Translations under genes and position numbers: made by a program
In this document: piece by piece, positions 18,645 through 45,530 of the stretch
Position numbering within the stretch: position 1 is the stretch's first letter
Layout: each line of letters opens with the position of its first letter
Notes under the pieces: model-generated
Told to the model about the DNA's origin: nothing
The model's input: the letters and a program-made list of their open reading frames with translations, nothing else
Databases searched by the model: none
Assembly (NCBI GenBank): GCA_021158465.1
Contig: JAGGUN010000047.1
Location: forward strand, 1 to 63,450
DNA: 63,450 bases
Direction: 5' to 3'
Source: a bacterium
GTDB lineage: Bacteria > UBP14 > UBA6098 > 4484-93

Positions 18645-20141
18645 TTAAAACAAAAAGGCTTTTTGAGGCATCCAGAGAAACTCAAGCCGTGCTGCCCAAT
18701 TCCCCTTGTTGTTACCTTTCTGATTCTCTCTGTTTCTATATTTCATATAATATAATCCTGCCTTCATATAAAGGTATGGTGTTGCTTCCCCCTCAGCCTC
18801 CAGTTTGACTATTGTCTTGTATTCCACCACCCCTGTCGGGAACTTCTCGTGATACTCTCCCGACACATCCATCCACGGTTCTGTCCAAGGGGAATCAATC
18901 CTCCCTTCCCCTTTTCGCTGGTATTCCGCTCCACAGGAAAGATAAAGGGCGGGGCTCAGCCAGAGCTTAGCATCTGCTGTTACCCTATCGAAGTCGCATC
19001 CTGCCGAATCGGAGAGGGGGAAACCCTTATACAGAAATCTATTCCATGGATAGAGCTGGTTGAATGTCCAGTTTGCTACCCTGCGATATTCGATGCTAAA
19101 ATCCACTGGAAAGACTGCATCGAGGGAGTGAGTAGCACCGATTGCCGCGGCATACTCTGTCGGTTCGTAGTCCGATTGGACATTCTTGTCTATCTGGAAA
19201 TCGTCGAGTGTGAACTCTGCTTCTACAAGCGTTTTAAGGAAATTTGCTCTGAACTCTGCACCGAGGAATGTATTGTCGTTCTCGTGGCTCTCCAGTTGCT
19301 CGATATGGAAAAGGTAGATGGGAAGGATATAGTATATCTCGGGTGTTCTCCCTGGTCCACCGAAAAGAAGTACCTCATATAGCGAGAATTCGATATTATT
19401 CATCGGGAGCACACTCAACCGATGGAACGAGAGATACCGCCTTGCATAGCTCTGATGATATATCTCCTGAAGGCTATCCGAGAGACGACAATCATCCAAG
19501 AAGAGGAGCCCGGAGAAGAACCTGAGCCTCCCGTGGAATGTTTGAAAAAGGAGTCCATCTGTCGGGCTATTCCCGGCAAAGAGTGTCCCTTTGCCCCATC
19601 GGATATATCCTCTTCCTGCGGAGAACTCACCCAGAGAAGAATTATACGCCAACACAGCCTTCGTTGTCCTCCAGGCGAGATTTTCCCACTTTTTACCCGT
19701 GAAGTGCGGGTTGTCGAAAAGCGAGTTATCTATCTCGAAGTTCGTGTAGAAAAAGCCTTTGTCCCAGAAATTCATCCCGACCGCAGGCTGGATGTATATT
19801 CTTGTCCTCCCTTTCGAGAGCGGCTTGCCCTCGAACGAGTAAGATTTAATCCCCATCGGCATCTCGGCGAAAAACCACCTTTTATCTGTCGATGTGCGGG
19901 AGAGATAGTATTCTCTCAAGACAGCAGGCAGTCTATCGGACAAGACACTGTGAATCCTCTGGCGGCTGATATAGTCCGTCATAAACACCACACCTTCGGG
20001 AACAACCCCTTCCCTTATAAAGAAACTTCTCTCAACCTCGGGGATGGATGAGTGCCTAAGATTTGGGACCCAGGCGTGCATATTTACGGGAAAACAAACA
20101 AGAAGCAATGCGAGGAGGAATTTCGAGAAGCTATTTCCCAT
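18645..20141 (-). CDS. Capsule assembly Wzi-like outer-membrane protein
   Basis: About 498 residues from the ATG at 20139-20141, chosen because GAGGAAG lies 7 bases upstream and the protein then opens with a signal peptide (MGNSFSKFLL ... VNMHAW). An in-frame ATG 27 bases upstream lacks a ribosome-binding site. The body is a beta-barrel pattern of alternating aromatic strands. Features typical of the Wzi family (E. coli Wzi is about 480 residues) are RGYIRWGKGTLFAGNSPTDG, then YLSFHRLSVLP and LFGGPGRTPEIYYILP. Wzi is an outer-membrane lectin-like barrel that anchors capsule to the cell surface. The gene overlaps the glycosyltransferase upstream by 11 bases, so it is the last gene of the polysaccharide operon. 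Family assignment by recognition, not by search. Confidence 0.75.
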   Translation of the reverse strand: MGNSFSKFLLALLLVCFPVNMHAWVPNLRHSSIPEVERSFFIREGVVPEGVVFMTDYISRQRIHSVLSDRLPAVLREYYLSRTSTDKRWFFAEMPMGIKSYSFEGKPLSKGRTRIYIQPAVGMNFWDKGFFYTNFEIDNSLFDNPHFTGKKWENLAWRTTKAVLAYNSSLGEFSAGRGYIRWGKGTLFAGNSPTDGLLFQTFHGRLRFFSGLLFLDDCRLSDSLQEIYHQSYARRYLSFHRLSVLPMNNIEFSLYEVLLFGGPGRTPEIYYILPIYLFHIEQLESHENDNTFLGAEFRANFLKTLVEAEFTLDDFQIDKNVQSDYEPTEYAAAIGATHSLDAVFPVDFSIEYRRVANWTFNQLYPWNRFLYKGFPLSDSAGCDFDRVTADAKLWLSPALYLSCGAEYQRKGEGRIDSPWTEPWMDVSGEYHEKFPTGVVEYKTIVKLEAEGEATPYLYMKAGLYYMKYRNRENQKGNNKGNWAARLEFLWMPQKAFLF

Positions 20142-21240
20142 ATACCACTTCCTCGAGTATCTGCTCATATCTGTCGATGACGGCGTCCCAGGAGTATGCT
20201 TCCTTCACCCTTTTCACTGCTTTCTCCGAATACTGCCTCTGAAGTTCAGGATTATCGATGACCAGCTTCATCTTCCTCACCATATCGCCCATATCGTTTG
20301 TCCTAAAGAAGAGTCCGGCATCCGCTATTACCTCACGATTTTCATCTATCCCGTTAACAAGAACGCAGCAGCCCGCGGAAAGTGCCTCGAGTATTGACAC
20401 TGATGTTCCCTCGAGTTCCGACGGCGAGACATACAGGTATGCGTTCGAGAAGAGCTGTTTCACCTTATCACCAAAAACACTCCCTGTCAGGATGACCCTT
20501 TTGTCACCGCTCGCAAGTTCGCGGAGCTTGCGCTCGTATTCTGGCATATACTTGTTCCCGCCGACAATAACGAGCTTATAGTCTGTGTCCAATCTCCTGA
20601 ACCCCTCAATCAGGAATTCTATTTTCTTTTCGGGGACAAGTCTCCCGACGAACAGCAAGTATCTTTTCGGCTTGATACCCAGTTCCTTTAAGAAATCTTG
20701 TGAATTAGAGCTTATCGGTTCAACGCCGGATGGGAGATAAATATGGTCTTTTATACCGTATCTCTGGTTGTAGTATTCCCAGACGGCACGGGAATCAACT
20801 ATCAGCCTGTTGGAAAACCTAACTGCAAAACGCTCATTGAAACGCATATACCATCTCGAAAACCCGCTGAACTTCTTCCTTTTCCACTCGATACCGTCCA
20901 CCGATATAACAACCTTCTTCCCGAAGAGTTTCAGAATTGGCAGGAGTATCCCGTTGCCCACATTATATATATGGATAATATCGAAGTCTTTTAATAATAT
21001 ACTATGTATAACAGAGAGGGCTGTGTGGAAGATGGTAGATGTATACTTCGTGTCGATGGTCGGCAACTGTATGAGGCTTACCCCTTCGTACTCCTTGAGC
21101 AATTCGACCTTCCCCAGCCGGCAGTAAACGGTGACAGAATGTCCTCGTTTGGTCATCTGCCTCGCTGTGACATCAGCTATAAGCTCGAACCCACCATAGT
21201 TGGCAGGTATCCCTCTCGTTCCCAGAATTCCTATCTTCAA
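20131..21240 (-). CDS. Glycosyltransferase family 4, DUF1972/rhamnosyltransferase-like
   Basis: 369 residues from a TTG at 21238-21240 whose last bases overlap the TGA of the upstream gene (TTGA). This start puts the first beta strand (LKIGILGTRGIP) at the N-terminus as usual for the family, and GAGGA lies upstream. A longer frame with an ATG 45 bases upstream exists but would overlap the previous gene. The N-terminal half (TRGIPANYGGFE) is the DUF1972 type found in rhamnosyl- and related transferases. The C-terminal half has the GT-B nucleotide-sugar site (VGRLVPEKKIEFLIEG, then an EX7E motif in ELEGTSVSILEALSAG). It is a retaining, cytoplasmic glycosyltransferase for polysaccharide repeat-unit assembly; donor and acceptor are unknown. 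Confidence 0.88.
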   Translation of the reverse strand: MKIGILGTRGIPANYGGFELIADVTARQMTKRGHSVTVYCRLGKVELLKEYEGVSLIQLPTIDTKYTSTIFHTALSVIHSILLKDFDIIHIYNVGNGILLPILKLFGKKVVISVDGIEWKRKKFSGFSRWYMRFNERFAVRFSNRLIVDSRAVWEYYNQRYGIKDHIYLPSGVEPISSNSQDFLKELGIKPKRYLLFVGRLVPEKKIEFLIEGFRRLDTDYKLVIVGGNKYMPEYERKLRELASGDKRVILTGSVFGDKVKQLFSNAYLYVSPSELEGTSVSILEALSAGCCVLVNGIDENREVIADAGLFFRTNDMGDMVRKMKLVIDNPELQRQYSEKAVKRVKEAYSWDAVIDRYEQILEEVVYGK

Positions 21241-22082
21241 TTTTCTTGCATCCTCTTCGCAAAATCCTCGATAGCCTTCTGCCAATGGGGAAGCACAACA
21301 GGCGGCGTAATAGCAAGCACACCGTACCCTTGCCTTCTTGCAGGGAAGCTTAAGCTGTTCAGCCTCACCTTCTCCACAGGGTAGTTACCATACCCCATCC
21401 GAGAGAGGAGGAACTTCACAAGTTCGTAACTTGTCACCTCTCCCTGATTGACAAGATGAAATATCCCCGTAAGCCCTTTTTCTATTATAACCCTAATTCC
21501 TTCCGCAATATCAGGCGCATACGATATCGACTGGAGATTATCATCCGCAAGCTTAAGCGGCTTTCTCTCTCTCACAATATCCGGGAGCCTGTTTATCAGC
21601 TTAACCGAGCGTTTGCTCTTCCAGATACCCCAGCCAAGCCTCGCTATAATGAAGTTTTCTCCCAATATCTCTTTCCCCCTAACCTCGGCAAGATACTTTG
21701 TATACCCGTAGTAGTTGACCGGACAGGGCGGGTCACACGGTTTGTAAGGTGAATCCCCCTTACCATCAAATATGTAGTTTGTGCTAGCAAAGAGAAGCTT
21801 TGCACCGACACTCTTTGCCGCCTCAGCAAGATTCTCTGTTCCTGTGATGTTGACAAATCTTGCCTTCTCCTTTTCAGCCTCCGCTCTGTCCATATCGGTG
21901 AACGCCGCAAGATGAACAATCCATTCAGGAGAAAACTCCCTCACCAGCCTGCTCACAGCGGCTGCATCTGTTATATCCATCCTGTCCCTCGATGGAGCAA
22001 GCAGCTCAAATTCTCCCTCGAGTCGCTGAAGGATACAGCTTCCCAAAAGACCGCTCGAGCCTGTCAAAAGCAACCTTTTCAT
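21237..22082 (-). CDS. rmlD: dTDP-4-dehydrorhamnose reductase-like NAD(P)-dependent SDR (RmlD family)
   Basis: 281 residues. The N-terminal Rossmann motif is LTGSSGLLGS, followed by SPEWIVHLAAFTDMDRAE, the STNYIFDG strand (STDYVFDG in classic RmlD) and the catalytic tyrosine/lysine pair in NYYGYTKYLAE. Size and layout fit RmlD, which reduces dTDP-4-dehydro-L-rhamnose with NAD(P)H. RmlB and RmlC homologues lie about 20 kb away in the same window. The D to N change in STNY is unusual but not catalytic, so a related deoxysugar reductase is possible. It overlaps its upstream neighbour by 4 bases (ATGA), implying translational coupling. Confidence 0.75.
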   Translation of the reverse strand: MKRLLLTGSSGLLGSCILQRLEGEFELLAPSRDRMDITDAAAVSRLVREFSPEWIVHLAAFTDMDRAEAEKEKARFVNITGTENLAEAAKSVGAKLLFASTNYIFDGKGDSPYKPCDPPCPVNYYGYTKYLAEVRGKEILGENFIIARLGWGIWKSKRSVKLINRLPDIVRERKPLKLADDNLQSISYAPDIAEGIRVIIEKGLTGIFHLVNQGEVTSYELVKFLLSRMGYGNYPVEKVRLNSLSFPARRQGYGVLAITPPVVLPHWQKAIEDFAKRMQEN

Positions 22083-23293
22083 ACTGAATTATAAACCTCC
22101 ATAACTCTCTGATAATGTGTTTCCCTGTCGAAATTCTCGAGGACGAAATCCCTTGCTTTCCTCCCCATCTCCTCAAGCCGTGAGGTATCGTTCATAAGTG
22201 TGATTATCTTCTCTTTTGCTTCATCGAGTCGCTGTGGAGAGAAGAGAACGCCTGTCTCATTATCCTTGACAATCTCCCTTGCTGCTCCAACATCCGACGC
22301 CACAACCGGCGTTTTGAGCATCATCGACTCGAGAACAGAGTACGGCAAGTTCTCCAGCCATATAGATGGAAACAGAGTAACAGCAGCCCTATTTAACCTA
22401 TCAAACAGCTCCTCCTTTGTAAGATATCCCAAAAGGTGGATATTGGCAAGCCTATTTTCCAGAAGTTGCTTCTCGAGCTGCCCTGTTCCAGCGAGCTCGA
22501 AATCGATCTCGGGGAGCCTGCTTGCAAGCTCGAGCAGAATCTTTATCCCTTTCTCGGGTGAGAGCCTGCCGGAAAAGATAATCTTTTTCTCTCTCGGAAG
22601 ATCCTTGGGTGAGACCTCATCGACGAAGTTCGGCAGGTAGACAAGCTTTTCCTCAGGGAATCCGCCTTTTTTGTAGTATTCCATAAGCGTTCTCGACGGG
22701 CAGATGAACCTATCGACCTTGTCCCAGACGCTAAGCAGTTTATAGAGGATCATCTCGAGGGCTGCGATGGTAGATGCAGAAATAGAATTCTTCTTGCAAC
22801 GCTCAAAGATTGCCCACAGCGGAGTTCTACCAAGGCATCTGGTGCAGATAGATTCACGACGCTCGGAGAAGAAAAGCCCGTTTGCACAGAGAAGTGAGTA
22901 GTCGTGCAGGGTCCAGACCACAGGTATCCCACGCCTCTTTATAGGATACAGGATGGATGGCGTTATATAATGGAGAAGCGACTGAATGTGAACAATATCT
23001 GGTCTCTTGTCATCGAGCAGATAAGAGATATTCCTCGCCGCCTGCGGGAAAAAGAAGGTTCTTCTCAGGGTATCAACCCCGCCTCTTATAATACCTTTTT
23101 CTTCTGCGATTGTCGGATAGTCGATATATTCGACGAAGTATCTCTCATCATCGGACAGGATATTCTCAGGATGCTTCATCGAGAAAAAGGATACATTATT
23201 CCCCTTTTCTCTCAAAAGCTCTGCGAGCGAGAAAGCGTATCTTTCCAACCCTCCTCTTATATAATGGTATATACTAACGATGAGTATATTCAT
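22079..23293 (-). CDS. Glycosyltransferase family 4
   Basis: About 404 residues from the ATG at 23291-23293. This start has AAGG six bases upstream and begins with the expected strand MNILIVSIYHYIRGGLERY; an in-frame ATG 27 bases upstream looks like read-through. The N-terminal GT-B domain binds the acceptor. A small cysteine cluster (ICTRCLGR, then ERCKKN) sits near residues 130-150, as in a subset of GT4 enzymes. The donor site shows GRLSPEKGIKILLE, and the EX7E motif is in WLENLPYSVLESM. It overlaps the upstream glycosyltransferase by 20 bases and the downstream reductase by 4, so it belongs to one operon. Sugar specificity cannot be read from the sequence. Confidence 0.88.
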   Translation of the reverse strand: MNILIVSIYHYIRGGLERYAFSLAELLREKGNNVSFFSMKHPENILSDDERYFVEYIDYPTIAEEKGIIRGGVDTLRRTFFFPQAARNISYLLDDKRPDIVHIQSLLHYITPSILYPIKRRGIPVVWTLHDYSLLCANGLFFSERRESICTRCLGRTPLWAIFERCKKNSISASTIAALEMILYKLLSVWDKVDRFICPSRTLMEYYKKGGFPEEKLVYLPNFVDEVSPKDLPREKKIIFSGRLSPEKGIKILLELASRLPEIDFELAGTGQLEKQLLENRLANIHLLGYLTKEELFDRLNRAAVTLFPSIWLENLPYSVLESMMLKTPVVASDVGAAREIVKDNETGVLFSPQRLDEAKEKIITLMNDTSRLEEMGRKARDFVLENFDRETHYQRVMEVYNSV

Positions 23294-24614
23294 CCGAAAC
23301 CTTATCGAGAAGTTGAGCAAGCCGTCTTGTTACCTTCTTGTGTTCAAAGCTGTAAATATAGTCCCAATTCGGCGTTCTATCAAGCTTTTCCTCCTCCCAT
23401 AGTGAATAAAGCTCCTTTATGCTTCTTTTGATAGCCTCTGGTTCTTCAGGTGGAGCAAATATACCGAGGTTTGCTTTTTTCAGTATCCGGGCGGTTTCGC
23501 ATTCATCGGGCATAAGGGCGAGCACAGGTTTTCCTGCTCTCATATATTCAAACAGTTTGCCCGGCAGTTGCCTCGGGCTGCCAGTAGAGGAGAAATACAG
23601 GAGGAGGAGCGAAGAAGCGGACATAAGCTCCCTTGGGATATACCTGTGTGGTAAATATCCTGGCGTCTCGACAAATCTCTCCAGATTGAGCCTTGCTATT
23701 TTTTCCCTATGAAAATCGGGGAAGTGCCCAACAAATCTGAGAACTATCCTCGCGTCGGGTCTCTCCTTGAGAAAGAGGGATAGCCCTTCCAGCAGGTATT
23801 TGGGTGTCATAGCAAACCCCTTTGGCTCATCATACGGTTCAAGGCTCCCTGTGTAAAGAAGAACAAACCTATCGCTCGGAGATGTCGATTTCACCCCTGA
23901 AAAAATCCTCTCGTTGAAACCAAGCGGAAGCGTAACAAATCGGCTTTTTGGCTTCTCCGGATACCGTCTCATAAGATGCTCCGTAACCGCCTCACCAGAG
24001 CCGATGACGAAATCGGAAAACAGGACCATATGCCGCTCAAGCGAAATCTCAACCCTTTGTCTTATCCTCGGACGGAGGTAGAAATCCTTTGCCGTCACCC
24101 ACTCATCAGAGAAATCAAGTATAAGCGGCTTGCCCGTGAGCATCTTGAGAGCGTAGCCAACCAGAGAAGCTGAGAACTGGGGAACCCTCGCGTAGATACA
24201 GGAAATATCGTTTTTCCTTACAAGCTCCAGTCCAGCTGGCACAGCAAACGGTAGCCAGCCTATCTGCCCATCAGGGATAAGAAGATACTTTCTTATTAGA
24301 AACTCAAGAGCCTTCACACCTTCTGGAAAGGTATCTTGCGGTCTCCAGCGACGGTCAGCAATTATCCTATCCTCTGATTTCCCCAATAGCTTGATGTGGG
24401 CATAATCAAGGGCAGGCGTCCTCTTAACAAAGACATCCTTTGGTATCTCGTCGAGAAGCGAATCATCGAATGCAAAATATGAATTCTTCTTGAGTGTCAG
24501 CACATACGGCTTCCAGCCAAATTCTGGCAGGTAGCTTATGTACCGGAGAACATACTGCACGGGCGGACCACCGACAGGCGGGAAATACCCAAGCACCATA
24601 AGCAAACTCCTCAC
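23274..24614 (-). CDS. Glycosyltransferase, GT4-like (GT-B fold)
   Basis: 446 residues from a GTG at 24612-24614 that overlaps the upstream TGA (GTGA) and has AGGAGG about 8 bases upstream. An ATG 15 bases further in also has GGAG, but starting there would cut the first beta strand (RSLLMVLGYFPPVGGPPVQY). The YFPPVGG start is typical of GT4 enzymes of lipopolysaccharide and capsule loci. The C-terminal half keeps the PGKLFEYMRAGKPVLAL segment of the donor site but lacks a clear EX7E motif, as in some divergent members. Middle gene of a run of three adjacent glycosyltransferases. Confidence 0.82.
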   Translation of the reverse strand: MRSLLMVLGYFPPVGGPPVQYVLRYISYLPEFGWKPYVLTLKKNSYFAFDDSLLDEIPKDVFVKRTPALDYAHIKLLGKSEDRIIADRRWRPQDTFPEGVKALEFLIRKYLLIPDGQIGWLPFAVPAGLELVRKNDISCIYARVPQFSASLVGYALKMLTGKPLILDFSDEWVTAKDFYLRPRIRQRVEISLERHMVLFSDFVIGSGEAVTEHLMRRYPEKPKSRFVTLPLGFNERIFSGVKSTSPSDRFVLLYTGSLEPYDEPKGFAMTPKYLLEGLSLFLKERPDARIVLRFVGHFPDFHREKIARLNLERFVETPGYLPHRYIPRELMSASSLLLLYFSSTGSPRQLPGKLFEYMRAGKPVLALMPDECETARILKKANLGIFAPPEEPEAIKRSIKELYSLWEEEKLDRTPNWDYIYSFEHKKVTRRLAQLLDKVSDEYTHR

Positions 24615-25768
24615 ACACCAAACCTCCTCCTGATGAAATCTTGCACCGCAGATGTCAAACTCTTTCTACCACGAATGAAACGCTCCCTCAGGAGCTTCTG
24701 GTTCTCAAGGATCCGTTCCCTTTCATTTCGGGAGGAACAAACCCTTCTTATCGCCTCCGCAAACGCATCCGCATCCCCAGCCGGAACAAGAATACCCCCC
24801 TTTCCAGCATCGAGCAGAAACGAAATCGGCTCAATATCACTCGCCACAATCGGGATACCACAAAGCACACCCTCAAGGGCTACCTTCGCTATCCCTTCGG
24901 TAACAGAAGGAACAACAAGTAGGTCACAGGAGTTGAGGTACGAACATAACATATCCGGCGGTCGTGCACCAAGCAGCCTCACCCTATCCCCGAGCCCATA
25001 TCTATCAACAAACCTCTCCAGCCTACTCCTCATTCTCCCTTCACCTATTATATATAGAACAAACCTTTCCCCATCCATCTGCCTCATAATCTCGGGAAGA
25101 AGAAGCACCCCCTTTTCCGCAGATAGTCTTCCAACAAAGAGGAGCTTGTTCCGTTTCTCATCGAGGATAAACTTTTCCACCGGCTTCTTGATGAAAAACG
25201 ACTGCGGATAGACCGGATATATATCCTGAATCTTCTCCCTTGGCACGCCCAAACGGGCAAGCTGGACCCCCGGGATATGCCCACGGGAGAGGATAAGCTT
25301 AACGGCATCGGAGCTGAGAAAATGTATGTAGCTATCAAAGAACCTACCTTTCAGTCCGGTCGGTCTCACAATCTCCCCCGTCTCAACCGGCAGGAACTCC
25401 GCAGCGGTCGCCTTGGCATACCTTGCCACAGGTATCTTGTTCATCCAGTATCCGAGTGCAACTATAAGCTCAGGCTTAAATAGCCTGAGGGCAGAGAGCA
25501 TCCTCCTGATCGCAAGAAGGTAGCCAGGATAGTTCTTGTGCGCACGAAGCATATCCAGAGGAAGCGTAAGAAACTCTATATTATCCCTTCTACCACCTTC
25601 CCACTCCTGCCCATACGAGATGATAAGAGCTTTTCTTCCTCTTGCAAGCTCAGCAAACTCCTCAATATATGAAACGATGCTGTCATGGAGAACAGGTCTC
25701 CCTGAGACAAGATTATCGAACTCACGCAAAGCGTTCCCATGCTTCAGCAGGGCAATTCTTTCAAGCAT
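24611..25768 (-). CDS. Glycosyltransferase family 4
   Basis: 385 residues. The start at 25768 is supported by AAGGA seven bases upstream; it overlaps the polymerase gene by 25 bases. The C-terminal donor-binding half is clear: FVGRLSAEKGVLLLPEIM, VRLLGARPPDMLCSYL, and the EX7E motif in VTEGIAKVALEGVL, followed by GIPIVASDIEPI. The N-terminal half is divergent, and its first ~45 residues contain no obvious nucleotide-fold strand until KALIISYG. It is the first of three consecutive glycosyltransferases after the polymerase. Cytoplasmic, repeat-unit assembly; specificity unknown. Confidence 0.87.
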   Translation of the reverse strand: MLERIALLKHGNALREFDNLVSGRPVLHDSIVSYIEEFAELARGRKALIISYGQEWEGGRRDNIEFLTLPLDMLRAHKNYPGYLLAIRRMLSALRLFKPELIVALGYWMNKIPVARYAKATAAEFLPVETGEIVRPTGLKGRFFDSYIHFLSSDAVKLILSRGHIPGVQLARLGVPREKIQDIYPVYPQSFFIKKPVEKFILDEKRNKLLFVGRLSAEKGVLLLPEIMRQMDGERFVLYIIGEGRMRSRLERFVDRYGLGDRVRLLGARPPDMLCSYLNSCDLLVVPSVTEGIAKVALEGVLCGIPIVASDIEPISFLLDAGKGGILVPAGDADAFAEAIRRVCSSRNERERILENQKLLRERFIRGRKSLTSAVQDFIRRRFGV

Positions 25769-27183
25769 TCCGGATCCTTGTGTACTATTGCTCTATCGTA
25801 TAGATACTCCGTTATAGCTATTAAAACAAGGTATCCAACGATAGTTATCGGTGAATCAAATAGATGCGAATTCACATACCCCATAGCAAATGTTGCAGGG
25901 ATAGTTGCAAATTGAACCTCAACGAACCTCCTCGCAAAAAGGGTTTTCAGCCTTTTCCGGATGCGAAAAAGCCGAAAAAGGATGTATGAGTAGTAGAGAT
26001 AAACAGAGAGCAGGAGAGAAAGCCCTATTATACCTGTCTTCGCAAGCGTGGTCCAGTAGAAATCATCACAAAAAGAGTATTCCTCCCCCATAATTGCCCA
26101 GCTTGTGCCAAATCCCCTCCCTATCCAGATATTATCCCGCCACATCGCCCTTGCGTCCATCCGTTCTATCTTCCTTATAGCAAGAGCAAGGTCAGTCCCT
26201 ATCCTACCTAATGTCGCGAACCTCTCAGTAAGAAAATAGGAGATATAGTCGTATAAATCCCTTGCTAAAAGATAAAGCCCAGCATTCAGTAGAACCACCA
26301 TCACGACCAGGATCAAGACCACCTTCCCAACGGTTACAAGGACAGCGGTGGACCTCTTCTCCGAAATATTAAAAATCAAAAGTAAAAGAACCGTTCCAAG
26401 CACCCCGAGCCACATCGTCCTCGTCTGGGTGAGAAGAAGCCCAAGAAGCAAAATGGTAAAAATAACTGCCCTCGCAACCTTCCCTTCGTTTTTGAAAAAC
26501 GGTTTCGAATCCAAAACATAGAGCTGGAAGAGGAAAGGATATGTTATAAGCATTATATTATTGTTCCGTTGCCCGAAGCGGATAGTTCCATGCAAATAGG
26601 AATACAGCGGAGAAAGATGCCCAATAACGAAAGGTGAGATTATAAGGAGCGAAAAGCCCAGCATACCTAGGGCAAGCCACTTATATGCCCTCTCTGCATC
26701 CTTGAGATCTGAAATGTAGGTAACTATTGGGAAGTAAGCAAGATAGAAAAAAGAATGCCTTATATCATTCCTCCAGGCAAACCCAAGGTGCGGTTTTGAT
26801 AAGCCAACAAAGATCGGAACGAGAAGGTATAGAACTGTTATCGATATAAGGATTGCCTCTCTGCTCCTGAAACTGGACTGAACCCTGCCAGAAACAAGCT
26901 CCAAAAACCAAACTGCAAGGAGTAAGCCGAAGAGGATCTCGTGGAAGGAAACATCAAACCCGAAAAGAGCAAAGTTGTCAAGCGCCGTTTCAACAGGGAC
27001 CCCCGTCATATAGATAACAAGCAGAGGGAGGATCGCCCTATACGGGATAAAAAGAGAAAACAGCCCGAGAAGAGCAAATGCAGCAAGCTTGACATATATG
27101 CTCGGGAAAACGAAAAAGACCCCTATGAACAGGATAAAGAGAAAGATAAACAGAACAACATATTTTTCCCCCCTATCGGGCAA
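25744..27183 (-). CDS. O-antigen ligase / polymerase family membrane protein (Wzy/WaaL-like)
   Basis: 479 residues with about ten to twelve hydrophobic segments, beginning within the first 15 residues (YVVLFIFLFILFIGVFFVF). A large polar loop lies in the second half (about 300-370, with RMDARAMWRDN and GRGFGTSWA). The RTMWLGVLGTVLLLL segment matches the Wzy_C/WaaL signature, where an RT(M/R).W(L) motif precedes a membrane helix. Such proteins polymerise lipid-linked repeat units or ligate them at the periplasmic face. The start is uncertain: the frame opens with TTG at 27181-27183, four bases after the previous stop, with only a distant GGAG; no in-frame ATG occurs before the first membrane segment. 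The position between Wzz-like and glycosyltransferase genes supports a polymerase. Confidence 0.8.
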   Translation of the reverse strand: MPDRGEKYVVLFIFLFILFIGVFFVFPSIYVKLAAFALLGLFSLFIPYRAILPLLVIYMTGVPVETALDNFALFGFDVSFHEILFGLLLAVWFLELVSGRVQSSFRSREAILISITVLYLLVPIFVGLSKPHLGFAWRNDIRHSFFYLAYFPIVTYISDLKDAERAYKWLALGMLGFSLLIISPFVIGHLSPLYSYLHGTIRFGQRNNNIMLITYPFLFQLYVLDSKPFFKNEGKVARAVIFTILLLGLLLTQTRTMWLGVLGTVLLLLIFNISEKRSTAVLVTVGKVVLILVVMVVLLNAGLYLLARDLYDYISYFLTERFATLGRIGTDLALAIRKIERMDARAMWRDNIWIGRGFGTSWAIMGEEYSFCDDFYWTTLAKTGIIGLSLLLSVYLYYSYILFRLFRIRKRLKTLFARRFVEVQFATIPATFAMGYVNSHLFDSPITIVGYLVLIAITEYLYDRAIVHKDPECLKELPC

Positions 27184-27186
27184 AAT

Positions 27187-28218
27187 CTACTTTCTCCTCT
27201 TGAAGAAGCGAGCGAGCGAGGCAATATCCTCCTTTACGCAGGAGACAATGTTCAACCGTGAAGAGGCAGGAGGTCCAGTTCTCCCAGTCGATTCTCGGTA
27301 GAATATAACAACAGTACCAACAGCAAGCGATACAAGGAGGATAGAAAGCGTCAAGAGCCTCTTACGCGGGAACGATGGCTTCGTTGGAGGAGATGCCCTG
27401 TCGAGGATAGAAACTATCGGGGTATCCCTGCGGTACCTGAGATTCTCCTGCTCCAACTGCTGGGCAAGCATAGTATACGCAGAGCTCTTTATCTGGTACT
27501 CCCGCTGGAGCGACTCTATCTCCATCTTGATTCTGGGAGAACCCCGGGTCTGGTAGTTCCTATTCTGCTCCAGAGCCTTTGTTAGGGTATCCTCTATCTG
27601 GGCAAGCTCCTTCCTCACATCCTCGAGCCTCCCCTTGATGTATTCGATGTTTTCCTTCGCCTTGAACTTGCGCTTGGTTCTATTGAACTCATCGAGCTTA
27701 TCCACAAGGAGATTTACCACCCCAGCAGCAAACTCAGGGTTCTTGTCAGTAAATTTGACTGTTATAAGCCCTGTCCTAAGACTCGACTCTATCTTTATCC
27801 TTTTTCTGAACCTCAAGATCGTAGCATCGTCCATCTTACCATTAAAATACTCAAGAGGAGTAAGCCTGACAAGCTGCCCGCCGTTATGGAACTCAAGCGG
27901 GGTGGTAAGCACCTCAACCAACACCTCCCTGCTCCTTATTATATCGGGGAAAAGGAACGAGGACGACTCTATCATCCCCTCATTCAGAAAATCCACCGGC
28001 ATATACCCTGCGACCTTAGCAAGCATGCCTATATCAGATACCTGCCCCGTAGGAAAGATTGTAGATGTGGCAGTGTACTTCTTCTTTGCAAGATTGACAA
28101 ATAGTAGCCCGCACAAAACCGATGTTACAACAATGAGATAGTAGGTTCTTCTGTACTTGAGGATTACAGAAAAATAGCTTGCAAACTTGTTGTCTATTTC
28201 CTCGGCAATGGGTGCCAT
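27187..28218 (-). CDS. Wzz-family chain-length determinant protein
   Basis: 343 residues with the classic layout of polysaccharide co-polymerases: a cytoplasmic N-terminus, a first membrane helix (~27-43, LIVVTSVLCGLLFVNLA), the KKYTATSTIFP strand of the Wzz domain, a periplasmic region with a long coiled coil (~165-255, KAKENIEYIKGRLEDVRKEL onwards), a PSFPRKR motif and a second membrane helix (~289-308). No Walker motifs or C-terminal tyrosine-kinase domain follow, so this is the kinase-free type. The family sets polymer chain length at the inner membrane. It sits between the SLBB export protein (10 bases upstream) and the polymerase (3 bases downstream). Confidence 0.9.
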   Translation of the reverse strand: MAPIAEEIDNKFASYFSVILKYRRTYYLIVVTSVLCGLLFVNLAKKKYTATSTIFPTGQVSDIGMLAKVAGYMPVDFLNEGMIESSSFLFPDIIRSREVLVEVLTTPLEFHNGGQLVRLTPLEYFNGKMDDATILRFRKRIKIESSLRTGLITVKFTDKNPEFAAGVVNLLVDKLDEFNRTKRKFKAKENIEYIKGRLEDVRKELAQIEDTLTKALEQNRNYQTRGSPRIKMEIESLQREYQIKSSAYTMLAQQLEQENLRYRRDTPIVSILDRASPPTKPSFPRKRLLTLSILLVSLAVGTVVIFYRESTGRTGPPASSRLNIVSCVKEDIASLARFFKRRK

Positions 28219-28228
28219 ATCTTTGCTT

Positions 28229-30559
28229 TTATAGTCTAAGGATTATGTAGAGAGTTGTTGCCAACCCTGACATTATCGTAATGGAGTCCTGAAGGATCTT
28301 CCCCCAGTCGGTCTTCTTCTTTACCGTCTGAGGAACGACAATCACATCACCCGGCTCTATATCCCTGAACCTCAACCCGCACTTTATCACCTTTCCGCTC
28401 GCCTTAACAAGCCTTATCTCCCCCTTGTCAGCATTCCTGGTGAAGCCACCTGCCTTCTCAAGATAATACCCAACATTCTTTCCCTTTATATACTTTATCG
28501 TCCCTGTCGAAGCAACGGAACCCAGAACACTCACACCGCTCGGTTTCTTGGGAATAAATATCGTGTCGCCATCCTGAAGGACAATATCCTCCTCCTTGTC
28601 ACCCTCGAGAATCTTCTCAAGGTTTATTATCACCCTATTCAGATTCTCCTCCCGAAACGTATACAAAAGCGGCGCCCTCTGGATATTTCCCATAGAATCG
28701 ATTATCGCTTCCTGAGTGTTCTCGACAATCCTCCGCAGGTCGCGCCTCACCGCCTCCTCCGTAATTGACGGGCGAATAAATACAGCGCCTCTAATGTAAG
28801 CATCATCCGTGAAACCACCCGCCCTCTCTATAAGCTCGGATAACTTTTCCTCCTTCTTAACGATAGCATAGTTACCTGGGAAGTTCACCTCTCCCAGAAT
28901 AGTAACAATCTCCTGTAGCTTCCACCCAGGAACCTCTCGAATAAACAGATAGTCATCTGGCTGGAGCAAGATATCCTCCTCTGGGTCACCCTCAAGAGCC
29001 TTATCAAGGTCAATGTATATAACCTCAGTGCTATCCTCACCGGGGTATACCCTCGAAAGCTCCGCTCGCTTCGTGTAAGCCTTTTTAAGAAGCCCTCCCG
29101 CCTCAAATATAAGATCAGACACACGCATATTCTCGAACAGCTCAAACTTACCAGGAGAAAATACCATACCATCTATGGCAACATAATCCTTCCGCTGAAC
29201 ATCCCAAACAGAATAAATGATAAGTCTGTCATCCTCCTGTAAGAGCAGATTCTCCTTCTCGTCCCCGGCAAGCACAGCCTCAAGGTCAACAGCAATGAGC
29301 TCTCTCTTCTGGCTCGGCAAGATACGAATAAGGTCCGCTCGCTTTAGGTAAGTATCCTTGAGCAGAAACTCACCATTCCCTATCAAATCGGAAACCCGCA
29401 TCCTCTCCTTCAACTCGAAGCACCCAGAGATGCTGACATTCCCCTCGAGGAAAACCAGCCTCCTCCTTGTGTAGTCTATGGGAAAAACCGATATATCATC
29501 ACCAAAAAGCACCGCACCTGTGTCGGATGAGTCAACCGTTATTATCCTATGCTCACCTCTCTCTACCCTGTCAATCATAATGTGGTGGATATCCGCATCG
29601 GGAAGAGTTCCGCCAGCAAGCGAGAGTATATCTGATATCCTCTCCGTTCCCGTTATCTCGTATATAGCAGGTCGCTTGACCCTTCCTCTCACAGAGACCC
29701 AACCCGTTGCCGGAGGGACATAGATAATATCATTCGGTAAGAGAAATATCTCCTCCTCAAGCTTTCCCTCCTGGATGAGCATATAAAGGTCAAGCCTGTG
29801 ACGGACCTTTCCTGCCTGAATGATACGGATATCCCTCAGCGACCCATGTTCCCTTACTCCTCCAGCCATCTCCAGTGCATTGACCACATTTGCCAGCCCG
29901 TTAAGTGTATACCCCCCAGGGTACTTCACATCGCCTATCACATAAACCCGTATCGCCTTGACCTTCCCCAAGGTCACATCCAGCTGGAAATCGGAATAGA
30001 TCTTCCTCAGATGCGAGGCTATCTTACTCCTTGCCGTCCCAAGGGTGAGTCCTGCCATAGAGAGAGCGCCCACCTGGGGAATAACTATCTTCCCTTCCCT
30101 GTCAACGGTGAGAGAATAAGAGGCGGATACCCCACCCCACAGGTTGATGATAATCTCATCCCCTGGTCCAAGCCTGTAGTTCTGCGGAGCAGGAGAATCG
30201 CCCATATAGACAGCCCCCTCCTGCTTCCGCTCAAAGAAGCTTGAACCATACAGTGTAAGCTCCTTGGGTGTCGCCTTCCTTATGGTCTGCACCGTATCAC
30301 CGTTTATTACTATATACTCATCAAAGTAAGGGAGCTTCTCCTCTTCAACCTTCGCCTTCTTTGTCTCCTCAGCCTTTTTCGCCTCAAAGCGAAGTGTATC
30401 AGAAAAGACGGGCTGTTTCCCTGCTGGAATGGTCTCCTCTGCCTCAGCCTCTTCCTTCCCCATACGCTCGAGATACTGCTTCAACAGCTCATAATCCTGA
30501 CAGAGAACAGGGGATACCAGCACAAAAAGAAGGGGTATCGCAGGAAGAAAATTTCTCAC
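28229..30559 (-). CDS. Polysaccharide export protein with about six SLBB domains (Wza-like)
   Basis: About 776 residues from a GTG at 30557-30559, chosen because the protein then begins with a signal peptide (VRNFLPAIPLLFVLVSPVLCQ) and clears the end of rplY; the longer open frame would overlap rplY by 80 bases. A polysaccharide-export domain (YRLGPGDEIIINLWG, then REGKIVIPQVGAL) is followed by six SLBB-like units marked by G.V..PG.Y and (L/I)..AGG. Two of these are followed by EGD.EE(D)I.LQ.(D/G)D linkers. A C-terminal hydrophobic stretch (IMSGLATTLYIILRL) could be a membrane anchor. E. coli Wza has far fewer SLBB units in about 380 residues, so this is an extended form that may span more of the periplasm. 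First polysaccharide gene after rplY. Confidence 0.85.
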   Translation of the reverse strand: MRNFLPAIPLLFVLVSPVLCQDYELLKQYLERMGKEEAEAEETIPAGKQPVFSDTLRFEAKKAEETKKAKVEEEKLPYFDEYIVINGDTVQTIRKATPKELTLYGSSFFERKQEGAVYMGDSPAPQNYRLGPGDEIIINLWGGVSASYSLTVDREGKIVIPQVGALSMAGLTLGTARSKIASHLRKIYSDFQLDVTLGKVKAIRVYVIGDVKYPGGYTLNGLANVVNALEMAGGVREHGSLRDIRIIQAGKVRHRLDLYMLIQEGKLEEEIFLLPNDIIYVPPATGWVSVRGRVKRPAIYEITGTERISDILSLAGGTLPDADIHHIMIDRVERGEHRIITVDSSDTGAVLFGDDISVFPIDYTRRRLVFLEGNVSISGCFELKERMRVSDLIGNGEFLLKDTYLKRADLIRILPSQKRELIAVDLEAVLAGDEKENLLLQEDDRLIIYSVWDVQRKDYVAIDGMVFSPGKFELFENMRVSDLIFEAGGLLKKAYTKRAELSRVYPGEDSTEVIYIDLDKALEGDPEEDILLQPDDYLFIREVPGWKLQEIVTILGEVNFPGNYAIVKKEEKLSELIERAGGFTDDAYIRGAVFIRPSITEEAVRRDLRRIVENTQEAIIDSMGNIQRAPLLYTFREENLNRVIINLEKILEGDKEEDIVLQDGDTIFIPKKPSGVSVLGSVASTGTIKYIKGKNVGYYLEKAGGFTRNADKGEIRLVKASGKVIKCGLRFRDIEPGDVIVVPQTVKKKTDWGKILQDSITIMSGLATTLYIILRL

Positions 30560-30569
30560 TATCCTCTTC

Positions 30570-31187
30570 TCACTCCTCTGTTTCCTCAGAAACACCTTCT
30601 TCCTCCCCAGAGGGAACCGCTTCTTTAGCCGCTTTGCCCCTTGGCTCACTCACCAGAGCGATTACCTCATCGGGTGGCTCAAGTATCTCAATATTCTCAA
30701 AAGAAAGCTCCTTTACCTTTATCGCTTCTCCTCTCTTTATCTTGGAGACATCTATCTTGAGCGATTCTGGGATATCACGGGGAAGGCAAGATATCCTAAG
30801 CGACCTCCTCAGCGGCTCAAACAGACCGCCTTCCTTGACCCCCTCAGGAACTCCCTCAAACTCGATATCTATATCAAGGGTAACCTTCCGACCTCCAACA
30901 AGCTCTTCAAAGTCTGCATGGAGTATCCTTTCTGTAACAGGGTGATGCTGGACATCCTTCAAGAATACTTCGATACTCTCACCCTCCATTATAAGCGTCA
31001 AAGCCATATGCTCTCTTCCTCTATGGAGACGAAGGAGGTTCCGAAACTCCCGCTCATCCACAGAGAGCATCACCTCCCTTCCCCCTCCGTAAAGGATAGC
31101 TGGAAACTTCCCATTGGCGCGCAGCTTCCTGGCAAATTCTTTTCCCTTCTTCTCCCTCTTCTCTACATTCAAAACTAACCCTTCCAT
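30570..31187 (-). CDS. rplY: 50S ribosomal protein L25 / general stress protein Ctc
   Basis: 205 residues, the length of the two-domain Ctc/TL5 form of L25, which binds 5S rRNA in the central protuberance. The N-terminal domain shows REKKGKEFARKLRANGKFPAILYG and FLKDVQHHPVTERILHADF, both typical. The C-terminal domain contains GVKEGGLFEPLRRSLRISCLP. It ends in a short acidic tail. A good GGAGCAGG site precedes the ATG. It follows prs by 9 bases; prs-rplY is a conserved bacterial pair. Usually pth follows; here the polysaccharide export gene starts 10 bases later. Confidence 0.95.
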   Translation of the reverse strand: MEGLVLNVEKREKKGKEFARKLRANGKFPAILYGGGREVMLSVDEREFRNLLRLHRGREHMALTLIMEGESIEVFLKDVQHHPVTERILHADFEELVGGRKVTLDIDIEFEGVPEGVKEGGLFEPLRRSLRISCLPRDIPESLKIDVSKIKRGEAIKVKELSFENIEILEPPDEVIALVSEPRGKAAKEAVPSGEEEGVSEETEE

Positions 31188-42008: not shown

Positions 42009-43001
42009 TCATCTCCTCGAAAAGCCCGATGGCTCTATGGTATCAAGATTGCTGGCGAACCAAAGCACAGTCCTTTCAAGCGCCTCATCAAAGCTATACC
42101 TTGGCTCCCAGCCAAGTGTCTCCCTTATCTTGCTCGAATCTATAGCATACCTTACATCGTGCCCGGGTCTGTCTGGAACAAACTTTATCACCGATTCATC
42201 CTTCCCAAGTATTCTCGCTACCCTCCTCGCAAGCTCGATATTCTGTATCCTGACCCCTGTCCCTATGTTATACACCTCCCCTATCCCACCATTGAGTAAA
42301 ACCAGGATAATAGCCTCGACCGCATCCTTAACGAACATCCATTCACGAATCTGTCTTCCATCTCCGTAAACCGGAATCCTGTTTTCCCGAACGGCCCTAC
42401 AGGTAAAAACGGGGATAGCATTGTGCAGATTCTCCCTGGGACCGAAGTTGTTACACATACGGACAATCTTGTAAGGGAACCCAAATGCTCTATCCTCGGC
42501 AAATATCATCCGCTCTGCCGCCGCCTTCGTGACACTGTAAGGGTTCGTCGGGCAAAAAGGTGCATTTTCCTTAGATGGTTCACCAAGATTCTCACCATAT
42601 ACCTCGTCAGTCGATATCTGAAGGAAGAAATCTATACCATGCTTCATCCCGAGCTTAACCATCCGATATACCCCGTCGATGTTCGTCCGTATAAACTGCT
42701 CAGCATCCCGAACCGAGAAATCAACCAAACTCTCCGCAGCAAAATTGACCACCACATCGCAATCCTTCATAACCTCATCCATAAGGGCAACATCGCATAT
42801 ATCACCCTGAATGAAACGGAAGTTATCCATCTCCTGAACAGGTGCAAGGTTTTCAAGCCTCCCAGCATGAGGGGTTAAGATGTCAATGACAACAAAATCT
42901 GTCTCCGGGAAGCGCGACACCGCTTCCTCAACAAAGTGGCTACCGATGAACCCTGCTGCCCCCGTTACAAGAACAGTCTTGCCGGTTATATCATATCCCA
43001 T
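42009..43001 (-). CDS. rmlB: dTDP-glucose 4,6-dehydratase (RmlB) or close relative
   Basis: 330 residues, extended SDR. The NAD motif is VTGAAGFIGSHF. The catalytic Thr-Asp-Glu is in QISTDEVYGE and the Tyr-Lys pair in NPYSVTKAAAE; YGDGRQIREWMFVKDAVEAI and PDRPGHDVRYAID match RmlB well. One departure: the usual AAESHVDRS loop reads AAESLVDFS, and the FPEKLIPL substrate segment reads ENLHNAIPVF, so another NDP-hexose or uronic acid substrate is possible. It makes the 4-keto-6-deoxy intermediate of deoxysugars. Start and the upstream stop overlap by one base (TAATG). Confidence 0.85.
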   Translation of the reverse strand: MGYDITGKTVLVTGAAGFIGSHFVEEAVSRFPETDFVVIDILTPHAGRLENLAPVQEMDNFRFIQGDICDVALMDEVMKDCDVVVNFAAESLVDFSVRDAEQFIRTNIDGVYRMVKLGMKHGIDFFLQISTDEVYGENLGEPSKENAPFCPTNPYSVTKAAAERMIFAEDRAFGFPYKIVRMCNNFGPRENLHNAIPVFTCRAVRENRIPVYGDGRQIREWMFVKDAVEAIILVLLNGGIGEVYNIGTGVRIQNIELARRVARILGKDESVIKFVPDRPGHDVRYAIDSSKIRETLGWEPRYSFDEALERTVLWFASNLDTIEPSGFSRR

Positions 43002-43456
43002 TACCTGTCCTTTCTTGACCAGTCATACGGTATCGGAGACTCATGCGGGTCAAGCCTATCCTCATCCGGGTTCTCATAGTTATAAGGCTCAGTCGGGCAG
43101 TTCAACACCAGTGCAGCCTCTTCTCCAATCCCCTTCCAGCCGTGATACACACCCCTCGGAATCTTCACGATGACAGGTCTCTTATCCCCAATGAATAACT
43201 CGTCCACCTCACCATAAGTAGCTGAATCCTTCCTTGGATCAAACATAACAAGCTTTATCATCCCCTTCAAGCACACCACAAAATCATCCTGCAGCCTATG
43301 CTTGTGCCACCCCTTCACAACCCCGGGGTAGACCGCAGAAACATAAACCTGCCCGAACTTCTCAAATATATCCTCATCACACCTCAGGCATTCCATAAGC
43401 CATCCCCTCTCGTCAGGAATAACCCGCCTATCCTTGACCACCACACCTTCTATCAT
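43001..43456 (-). CDS. rmlC: dTDP-4-dehydrorhamnose 3,5-epimerase-like cupin (RmlC family)
   Basis: 151 residues, shorter than the usual ~180. The cupin core keeps VVKGWHKHRLQDDFVVCLKG (RGLHYQ in classic RmlC), VIVKIPRGVYHGW with the second histidine, and the end motif PTEPYNYENPDEDRLDP, which is characteristic of this family. It would epimerise C3/C5 of the 4-keto sugar made by the RmlB-like enzyme next door. The short form and the WHKH variant resemble archaeal and candidate-phylum RmlC-like proteins, so the true reaction could be a 3- or 5-epimerisation or ketoisomerisation of another dTDP sugar. GGGGGAG precedes the ATG. Confidence 0.75.
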   Translation of the reverse strand: MIEGVVVKDRRVIPDERGWLMECLRCDEDIFEKFGQVYVSAVYPGVVKGWHKHRLQDDFVVCLKGMIKLVMFDPRKDSATYGEVDELFIGDKRPVIVKIPRGVYHGWKGIGEEAALVLNCPTEPYNYENPDEDRLDPHESPIPYDWSRKDR

Positions 43457-43473
43457 CTCTCCCCCTTGAATTT

Positions 43474-44670
43474 TTATCTTTTGCCTTCGTTATACCTTTC
43501 TATCCCTATGGCGAGGGTTCTCATCGCAGATCTTATCTCCTCTTCTCTAAGGACATAAGCAATCCGAGCCTCCTTCTTGCCAAGCGTCTCTGTAGCGTAA
43601 AACCCCGGTCCAGGTGCTATCATCGTGGTCGTCTGATTGTAAGAGAAATCGGTCAGCATCCATCTAGCAAAATCCTCGATGTCATCCACCGGCAGAGTCG
43701 CCATAATATAGAACGCACCTGACGGCTTCCTACAGAACGCACCCGGAATCTTCTCAAGCTCCTCAATGGCGACATCCCTGCGGCGCCTGTATTCGTCCCT
43801 CATCTTACGGTAATATTCATCGCTGATATTGTCGAAAACATTCTTTGCCGCATACTGTTCAACCGATGGCGGACACAACCTCGCCTGCGCAAACTTCAAA
43901 ACAGAACGCATAACTTCGCCGTTCTTGCTCGCAATATTTCCAATCCTTGCACCACAGGCAGAGAACCGCTTAGAGACGGAATCCAGGAGTATCGCCCTGT
44001 CGCGTACCTGCGGAAGATGCATTACGGAGGTGTAATTCCCTTCATATACAAACTCCCTGTAGACCTCATCGGAGATGACAAAAAGCTCGTTCCTCTCCGC
44101 TATATCGGCTATCATCTCCATCTCTTCCCTCGTCAGAACAGTTCCTGTAGGGTTGTTTGGCGTGCAGATAAATATCCCCCTCGTCCGTTCGGTAATCTTC
44201 TCCTCTATAACCTCGGGAGCAGGTAAATGGTACCCGTTCTCCGGGGAGGTCGTTATCGGCACAAGCTTCACACCCGCCATGACGGCGTATCCGTTGTAGT
44301 TCGTATAGAACGGCTCAAATATGATAAACTCATCCCCCGGGTCGGATGTGGCAAGCATAGAAAAGACAATCGCCTCCGAACCACCTACCGTGACAACTAT
44401 ATCCTCAGGCTCAAAATCGATCCCATATCTCCTGTAGTAGCGGATAAGCGAATCGATGTAGTCAAGATCCCCCTGGGAGTTGCCGTACGCAAGCACCTTA
44501 GCACCATAACTCTTTATAGCTTCCCAAAAGAGCGGTGGCGTCTCAATATCCGGCTGTCCGATGTTCAGATGATATACCTTGATGCCCCTTCTCTCGGCAT
44601 CAATCGCAAGCGGTACAAGCTTCCGAATAGGCGAAGCTGGAACCCTTCTCCCCCTAACAGATATATTCAC
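43474..44670 (-). CDS. Class I/II PLP-dependent aminotransferase (aspartate aminotransferase family)
   Basis: About 398 residues from a GTG at 44668-44670, chosen because AAAGGAGG sits 4-5 bases before it; a longer frame would begin inside that ribosome-binding site. The internal aldimine lysine is in LLDSVSKRFSACGARIG (about residue 234). TPNNPTG, ISDEVYREF and the N-terminal HLNIGQPDIETP are all classic for aspartate/aromatic aminotransferases. It is not a sugar (DegT-type) aminotransferase, despite sitting between the C5-epimerase-like and RmlC genes. Substrate unknown. Confidence 0.88.
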   Translation of the reverse strand: MNISVRGRRVPASPIRKLVPLAIDAERRGIKVYHLNIGQPDIETPPLFWEAIKSYGAKVLAYGNSQGDLDYIDSLIRYYRRYGIDFEPEDIVVTVGGSEAIVFSMLATSDPGDEFIIFEPFYTNYNGYAVMAGVKLVPITTSPENGYHLPAPEVIEEKITERTRGIFICTPNNPTGTVLTREEMEMIADIAERNELFVISDEVYREFVYEGNYTSVMHLPQVRDRAILLDSVSKRFSACGARIGNIASKNGEVMRSVLKFAQARLCPPSVEQYAAKNVFDNISDEYYRKMRDEYRRRRDVAIEELEKIPGAFCRKPSGAFYIMATLPVDDIEDFARWMLTDFSYNQTTTMIAPGPGFYATETLGKKEARIAYVLREEEIRSAMRTLAIGIERYNEGKR

Positions 44671-44681: not shown

Positions 44682-45530
44682 TCAACTACAAGAAACGCTG
44701 TTCTGCCTCCCTGTCAAGAAAGAAATTTTCTCCCCAAGCTTCCCGAGGGCAAACCTTATCCTATTCTCGGGAGAGTAGAGATACCGCCTCCACTTATCGT
44801 GATAATACTTAAACTCCGCATTCCCAGTAATCTTGTGCATAATCCCCGTCAACTCTATGTGAATTCTGTGGTACCCAACAGAGGCCAGGAGCGGCACAGG
44901 CTTCAGAAGATACAGACTCCAGAAACCTGTATCGTATAGGTGAAGATTAGAAGCAAGGTTTCTCGATACAAGGTCGAAAAGCTGTCTCTCCTTGGTAAGT
45001 CCGGACAGCTCGACCGCGTCGCAAAGCCCAATGAGAGCAAACATCATCCCGTTCAGAACATTCGGGGAGAAACCCGCTGGATACTCCTCGAGCGACACCG
45101 TCCCATCAGGGAACAAACCAGCCACTCCACCATCCTCAACAGAGCTGTGGAACGGAACAAGCGCTCCTTCAACTACCTCCAGAACCTCATTCCCCCCACC
45201 AGCGAGGATGTAGCGCGTAAGGAGCGATATCGCCTCTCCCTGTGCCATCGCAGATACCCACCCCGGCTGAAGCGAAAATCGCCTTTCAGAGAAATCGTAT
45301 TCCCAGACAAACGCCCTTCCCTTCTGTTTTGCATTCTCAAGCAACGCCTCCGAGCATCTGATAAACCCAGCCTCGTTCCCAGTATTGTAGTAAAACAGCC
45401 CTGCCTGTGCAACGGCAACTGGATGGAAAAAAGGAAGCCTCGGAAGACCCTCCTCATCCATCGGTATCCCACCAAAACAGAGCTTCCTGTATCTGAGAAA
45501 ATCAAACGGGTATGGATGGACAGGATGCAT
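44682..45530 (-). CDS. D-glucuronyl C5-epimerase-like protein
   Basis: 282 residues from the ATG at 45528-45530. A longer in-frame TTG (45572) lies at or upstream of the likely transcription start and has no ribosome-binding site, so it was not used. The C5-epim_C signature is clear: FFHPVAVAQAGLFYYN, QPGWVSAMAQGEAISLL, SLEEYPAG..PNVLNGMMFALIGLCD, YDTGFWSLYLL and the YHRIHIELTGIMHKIT segment. Animal and bacterial members convert D-glucuronic to L-iduronic acid in heparosan-type polymers. No signal peptide is seen, so it probably works in the cytoplasm on a sugar chain or nucleotide/lipid-linked unit. First gene of an operon with an aminotransferase, RmlC and RmlB. Confidence 0.85.
   Translation of the reverse strand: MHPVHPYPFDFLRYRKLCFGGIPMDEEGLPRLPFFHPVAVAQAGLFYYNTGNEAGFIRCSEALLENAKQKGRAFVWEYDFSERRFSLQPGWVSAMAQGEAISLLTRYILAGGGNEVLEVVEGALVPFHSSVEDGGVAGLFPDGTVSLEEYPAGFSPNVLNGMMFALIGLCDAVELSGLTKERQLFDLVSRNLASNLHLYDTGFWSLYLLKPVPLLASVGYHRIHIELTGIMHKITGNAEFKYYHDKWRRYLYSPENRIRFALGKLGEKISFLTGRQNSVSCS

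Follow-up and report, generated by a model that had tools for sequence, protein, structure and literature searches.

A short bacterial homologue of glucuronyl C5-epimerase and its gene neighbourhood

The stretch of bacterial DNA analysed here (63,450 nucleotides, referred to as the window) carries a minus-strand gene for a protein resembling the glucuronyl C5-epimerases of animals, which turn glucuronic acid into iduronic acid in heparin, next to genes of deoxysugar type. The question raised by this locus is whether the encoded protein is an intact uronyl C5-epimerase and, if so, on which glycan and at which stage of glycan assembly it would act. The relevant features are summarized in Table 1.

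Table 1. Features of the window discussed in the text, with the matches on which each assignment is based.
Feature	Coordinates	Strand	Basis
C5-epim_C (Glce-family) uronyl C5-epimerase homologue	44682..45530	(-)	PF06662 E 4.6e-36; PDB 6HZZ E 3.5e-26; model Z 25.1 to 6i01
PLP aminotransferase (PRK07568 subfamily)	43474..44670	(-)	NF005744 580 bits, cut-off 389
RmlC-like cupin, 151 aa	43001..43456	(-)	51.2 bits vs rmlC equivalog cut-off 155.75
RmlB-like SDR, 330 aa	42009..43001	(-)	TIGR01181 342.2 bits, dTDP-glucose 4,6-dehydratase cut-off 365.1
Capsule/exopolysaccharide cluster (Wzi, GT4 x4, RmlD, Wzy, Wzz, Wza)	18645..30649	(-)	family matches
GT4 glycosyltransferase, in capsule cluster	23274..24614	(-)	279 bits, best of 6 genome places at E<=1e-10

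The open reading frame starts with an ATG at 45530 and ends with a TGA at 44684-44682, yielding a protein of 282 residues; a mechanical ORF caller took an in-frame TTG upstream, at 45572, which gives a reading of 296 residues, and the residue numbers used here refer to the latter. The match to Pfam C5-epim_C was far past chance (124.5 bits, the curated cut-off being 23.3) and covered residues 87-262 and profile positions 4-187 of 188. A sequence-only reading of this DNA had called the signature strong on the basis of four motifs; the frame is present and all four motifs were found, EEYP at 162-165, VLNG at 172-175, YDTGFWS at 213-219 and YHRIHI at 234-239, which together with the Pfam score bears out the claim. 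A search of NCBIfam returned 0 families at E<=0.001. With phmmer against the sequences of the PDB, three distinct D-glucuronyl C5-epimerase sequences were obtained (E 3.5e-26, 1.2e-25 and 1.1e-21), the sole remaining row being SAKe6BE-L3 at E 0.29; the nearest solved relatives by sequence are the human and zebrafish glucuronyl C5-epimerases. The N terminus is not strongly hydrophobic, as judged by a crude window score.

The catalytic residues of GLCE are given as E499, Y500, N510, Y560 and Y578 in the portion of PMC13308652 dealing with the enzyme, and a section of a review (PMC12834895) assigns the roles of base and proton donor in the human protein to Y578 and E499, respectively. In an alignment of 90 rows (the query, the human and zebrafish segments and 87 others) these five positions correspond to E163, Y164, N174, Y221 and Y234 of the bacterial protein, so that all five are kept; loss of active-site residues, named beforehand as grounds for rejecting the assignment, was not what we found. 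The full set is present in 68 of the 88 non-animal rows (query counted) and at least one residue is missing in the other 20, so the family need not share one function. Human R563, which we take to be an active-site arginine, is replaced by lysine (K224); the column is variable across the 88 non-animal rows and an arginine there is thus not family-defining. The proposed check of the active-site Tyr and Arg therefore gave a divided answer: the tyrosines and the other reported catalytic residues are retained, but the arginine is not. Within the 24-row clade to which the query belongs (see below), 19 rows have all five residues and the remaining five carry Phe at the position of human Y500. This substitution was seen in the C5-epim_C proteins of loci L040, L041, L042, L044 and L051, and also in L052, outside the clade; these proteins form a natural test of whether the Y500 position is needed.

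An AlphaFold2 model, built on a 6-row alignment, had a pLDDT of 81.0 and a pTM of 0.83. All eight Foldseek matches in the PDB with E<=0.001 were Glce chains. In VIA-align comparisons the five Glce entries gave Z scores of 24.6-25.1 over 237-240 residues, with an rmsd of 3.0-3.3 and 29-32% identity (6i01_A: Z 25.1, rmsd 3.1, 237 residues), and the next entry, a cellobiose 2-epimerase, followed at Z 13.0, a gap of 11.6 Z units. The helical catalytic domain fold of GLCE is thus predicted to be present. Residues 17-276 of the model correspond to human 169-617, and much of human Glce is left unmatched. Animal GLCE is described, in the domain account of PMC13308652, as having an N-terminal beta-hairpin and a central beta-sandwich; from the lengths and this published description, the absent part would be these beta domains. 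Lyases, hydrolases and 2-epimerases occur among the lower-ranked fold matches, which, together with the 20 aligned rows deviating at catalytic positions, brings up the alternative that the protein degrades polysaccharides or has otherwise been re-purposed, its Glce-type alpha/alpha-barrel then serving a different reaction, such as that of a lyase or hydrolase. We regard this as very improbable, given that the query keeps the complete set of residues, that the Glce entries stand so far above the next fold and that, among the neighbouring genes scored, those for glycan synthesis recur beside members of the family.

According to the sequence-only reading, C5-epimerases of heparosan-type chains are known from animals and from some bacteria only. 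Our sample consisted of 145 genomes, namely that of the window and its nearest available relatives, most of which share only the domain with it; PF06662 was found in 17 of them at E<=0.001, in 15 above the cut-off and in 13 with E<1e-20. Control genomes gave 2 out of 14, one of which was above the cut-off, and in a scan of named genomes the best 80 of 103 relatives came from bacteria and archaea of many phyla. The genome of the window itself holds three copies: besides the gene at 44682-45530 there are two in tandem on contig C31. With clear members in 13 of 145 sampled genomes and two extra copies in the same genome, the idea of a rarity was abandoned; the gene looks like a modest addition to a family found in many bacteria and archaea, and no oddity. 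The tandem pair (L001:1474-3328, at about 86.0-87.9 kb of contig C31 of genome G000) comprises ORFs of 306 and 329 residues with hydrophobic, lipoprotein-like N termini (lipobox judged by eye), and is also present in a genome of the same genus (L033).

The main tree contained 87 rows and 208 columns; the long-branch rows L037, L095 and L111 were left out of it and retained in the 88-row residue count. Loci L039, L045, L046 and L054 repeat others and are excluded from the counts, and L030, L034, L056, L073, L103 and L109, for which the ORF caller gave no C5 protein, fall outside the alignment and the neighbourhood counts. The query falls in a 20-row clade (support 95/86) nested in a larger one of 24 rows (96/90), made up of short forms of 262-314 residues, and shares a fork with L026 and L050 (93/89). 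Its end branch is long, 1.31 changes per column, which makes a shifted substrate possible. Thirteen of the 23 other short-clade rows belong to records whose titles name KSB1, Calditrichota/Caldithrix or WOR-3, and one to a record titled Actinomycetota. A hydrophobic N-terminal window scoring above 2.0 was found in 0 of 24 short-clade rows against 23 of 64 other rows; the screen is a crude window score and not a signal-peptide predictor, and one row of the short clade, L058, comes close to the limit with 1.97. Human and zebrafish GLCE group with proteins from Bacillus pinisoli, Lentibacillus and Pleurocapsa (L087, L114, L118; support 100/98), away from the query. In AU tests, joining the query to the animal group gave p 0.108, and joining it to the paralogues of its own genome gave p 0.095 although the log-likelihood was 362.66 lower; these two values go together oddly, and we draw nothing from them. 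Neither grouping is rejected at 0.05, and the separations are accordingly those of the tree itself. The suggested phylogenetic comparison with animal Glce thus places the query in a separate clade, and the AU test does not reject the joint grouping. As a separate observation, the grouping of animal GLCE with the three bacterial proteins, compared over the C-terminal segment, raises the question whether the gene has passed between bacteria and animals.

The genes surrounding the family were examined in 85 loci, the window's own locus being excluded. In 23 of these a member of one GT4 glycosyltransferase subfamily is located at most 300 bp from the C5 gene, always on the same strand, and 1, 3, 0 and 1 loci have one at distances of 300-1500, 1500-3000, 3000-4500 and 4500-6000 bp, respectively (hmm from alignment A4, E<1e-20; not every locus spans the full distance on both sides). 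When the first distance bin is begun at -200 bp it holds 21 loci, and two more overlap further. The hmm was built from 11 of the 23 adjoining partners; the part of the count that is independent of its building is 12 of 74 other loci. With looser GT4 seeds, the next gene was a GT4 downstream in 17 of 81 loci and upstream in 10 of 78. Twelve of the 23 other short-clade rows have the partner downstream; in a Cloacimonadota/Fidelibacterota group it is upstream in 7 of 9 rows, which points to separate pairings. Loci with an adjoining GT4 include L041, L051, L057-L062, L090, L098, L100 and L101, with both gene orders represented; the proteins of the subfamily begin with a region that contains YYFPP or YYWPP and also have a KFAKYLPEFGW-like stretch. 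Flippase-like genes are present within three genes of the epimerase in five clade members (L027, L047, L048, L049 and L051). Neither a GT4 nor a flippase gene adjoins the epimerase of the window. Apart from three papers listed for such an operon pairing, the open-access literature covered showed no title that names a pairing of C5-epimerase and glycosyltransferase, and we do not claim the pairing as unpublished; the accession PF06662 gave no match, and the Pfam name gave a melanoma paper only.

A connection to the capsule cluster of the window through this GT4 subfamily was considered and dropped: the GT4 at 23274-24614 is the best match in the genome, but in a tree it stands apart from the partners that adjoin epimerases. 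In this quick tree of 61 GT4s, in which many forks are weak and many end branches long, its nearest neighbour is a copy from the same genus, followed by GT4s from genomes scored as epimerase-negative (fork support 89). The subfamily (E<=1e-45) was found in 8 of 13 epimerase-positive and in 32 of 132 other genomes (Fisher one-sided p 0.008, relatedness ignored). Genomes G057, G073, G088 and G144, with borderline C5-epim_C matches, were counted as negative, and the GT4s closest to that of the window in the tree come from two of them, G057 and G073; the co-occurrence across genomes is only suggestive.

We then consider the genes directly downstream. The aminotransferase has a probable GTG start at 44670 behind AAAGGAGG, 11 nt past the epimerase stop (the ORF caller used a TTG at 44685), and the RmlC-like and RmlB-like genes follow in the same direction. 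In NCBIfam neither of the latter reaches the equivalog cut-off of the dTDP-rhamnose pathway; the cupin at 43001-43456 is perhaps a different sugar epimerase or isomerase. Despite its 51 against 156 bits, this cupin is 52-64% identical to its counterparts in the 12 other genomes of the same class that carry it. Among 19 genomes searched (18 relatives and the window's own), 14 had an RmlC-like gene (E<=0.001) and 15 the aminotransferase (E<=1e-80), and the two genes adjoin in G002, G004, G005, G007, G009, G011 and G013, besides the window. Of 15 regions fetched, five (L144-L148, representing two families of the class) have the aminotransferase and RmlB running on into Wza and Wzz matches; in L144-L147 the ORF caller had kept an opposite-strand frame over RmlC, whose position next to the aminotransferase comes from the sequence searches. 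A C5-epimerase was labelled in 0 of the 15 regions (phmmer E<=1e-10; several regions end at contig ends). As these genes recur in relatives in which no epimerase adjoins them, the linkage says little about the pathway of the epimerase. The RmlB/RmlC linkage reported earlier is real as to gene order and direction, but was not upheld as functional evidence.

The same data bear on the possibility that the gene serves the adjoining deoxysugar/capsule pathway (aminotransferase, RmlC and RmlB, followed by Wza and Wzz), a reading that is compatible with an epimerase function and would name the glycan. It is suggested by the close spacing and common direction of the epimerase and aminotransferase genes, and by L144-L148, where Wza and Wzz come after the aminotransferase and RmlB and where RmlC adjoins the aminotransferase. 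However, the gene preceding the aminotransferase in these five loci is a non-epimerase; the two of these genomes that do have a short-clade epimerase, G002 and G005, carry it on a different contig, where it directly follows a KdsD/KpsF-type gene and a TPR gene. In the same-genus genome, which is 80% complete, neither the aminotransferase nor RmlC gave a match, and the capsule GT4 of the window is apart from the epimerase-adjacent GT4s. We consider this pathway assignment rather unlikely. On the other side of the epimerase gene, a 3085-residue protein with a FlgD-like/type IX secretion-type C-terminal domain ends just upstream; very long proteins with such domains were observed at 262-4074 and 45664-54921 of the window.

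The capsule cluster invoked in the sequence-only reading is indeed in the window, but is separated from the epimerase by about 14 kb containing other genes; its Wza-Wzz genes (27187-30649) lie about 11 kb beyond the aminotransferase-RmlC-RmlB genes (42009-44670). It is a possible destination of the epimerised glycan. As to the supply of uronic acid, contig C23 ends in a 127-residue fragment that scores 146 bits for nucleotide-sugar dehydrogenase and 133 bits for TuaD, both below the cut-offs for whole proteins, and a match at the start of contig C7 may be the remainder. From this TuaD-like UDP-glucose 6-dehydrogenase fragment, UDP-GlcA is probably available in the cell. A second nucleotide-sugar dehydrogenase, on C49 (L005), scores 412 bits for NDP-sugDHase, and its best equivalogs, below their cut-offs, are of the UDP-HexNAc type. 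The protein might alternatively be a C5-epimerase acting on another hexuronic acid (N-acetylated or diacetamido uronic acid, mannuronate) and yielding an L-uronate other than iduronate. Consistent with this are the UDP-HexNAc-type dehydrogenase, the long end branch of the query, the loss of human R563 and the genes that come after Wza-Wzz in relatives, which by eye, from N-terminal sequence, resemble a Gfo/Idh oxidoreductase and a hexapeptide acyltransferase (L144 and L145) and a DegT aminotransferase (L146). On the other hand, the five residues reported to be catalytic on GlcA in Glce are all kept and the TuaD-like fragment is present as well, and we think a different hexuronate unlikely.

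On balance, we favour, with some reserve, the interpretation of the gene product as a Glce-family hexuronyl C5-epimerase that consists of one domain, is catalytically intact and would act in the cytoplasm on a glycan precursor. This is based on the Pfam match, on the likeness to Glce in both sequence and fold, and on the five retained residues; on the lack of a hydrophobic N-terminal window throughout the 24-row clade and the UDP-glucose dehydrogenase-like fragment; and on the GT4 that adjoins the family in 23 of 85 loci, with flippase-like genes near five clade members. What counts against it is that no GT4 or flippase gene adjoins this particular gene, that R563 is Lys and that the beta-hairpin and beta-sandwich are absent. 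The enzyme would act in the cytoplasm on GlcA, or a related hexuronic acid, within a lipid-linked oligosaccharide before export. By analogy to the human C5-epimerase, Y234 (human Y578) would take the C5 proton and E163 (human E499) would return a proton from the opposite face; Y164, Y221 and N174 may, in our own proposal, support the intermediate. The resulting surface glycan would contain an L-iduronyl-type residue, and from the membership of the family iduronate is a plausible product in this organism.

Golgi GLCE and the periplasmic alginate epimerases act on the finished polymer. We suggest tentatively, and with appreciably more doubt than for the gene itself, that the short signal-less clade could be a cytosolic one-domain module, often accompanied by one GT4, which would epimerise lipid-linked uronate before flipping and polymerisation, and so would differ from those enzymes in acting before polymerisation. 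The gene at 44682-45530 taken alone is one more family member; the short clade, about half of whose members have a GT4 alongside, is a source of compact one-domain candidates for the production of glycans that contain iduronate, and would allow the idea of pre-export epimerisation to be tested.

Compared with the human and zebrafish Glce structures (PDB 6HZZ, 6I01, 6I02, 4PW2 and 4PXQ), the protein shares the alpha-helical catalytic domain and the catalytic set E499/Y500/N510/Y560/Y578, at the identity and aligned length given above; it differs in being a single domain of 282-296 residues without the beta-hairpin and beta-sandwich, in the lysine at R563 and in falling in another clade of the tree. 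The other short C5-epim_C proteins (23 rows) belong to the same clade (96/90) and resemble it in length and in the absence of a strongly hydrophobic N terminus, but 12 of them have the GT4 partner directly downstream, unlike the query. Agl32 of Halobacterium salinarum, known here by its published description, is a prokaryotic GlcA C5-epimerase with one predicted helical domain and a short glycan as substrate, and according to PMC13308652 it has no GLCE catalytic residue at the corresponding place, whereas the query keeps all five. The Bermanella marisrubri RED65 enzyme (RED65_08024) is likewise a bacterial Glce homologue, set beside the query by description only; in vitro it turns GlcA of desulfated HS into IdoA, as stated in PMC4432689 and PMC13308652, and its natural polysaccharide was not known in 2015 according to the relevant part of PMC4432689. 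Putative prokaryotic epimerases were the subject of a 2011 paper by Raedts et al., listed among the citations of PMC4432689, so that the existence of homologues in prokaryotes is in itself no new finding. In the corresponding passage of the 2026 paper (PMC13308652) one bacterial glucuronyl C5-epimerase is counted as identified, yet the relatives found here come from many phyla, and 68 of the 88 that were aligned have their catalytic residues intact.
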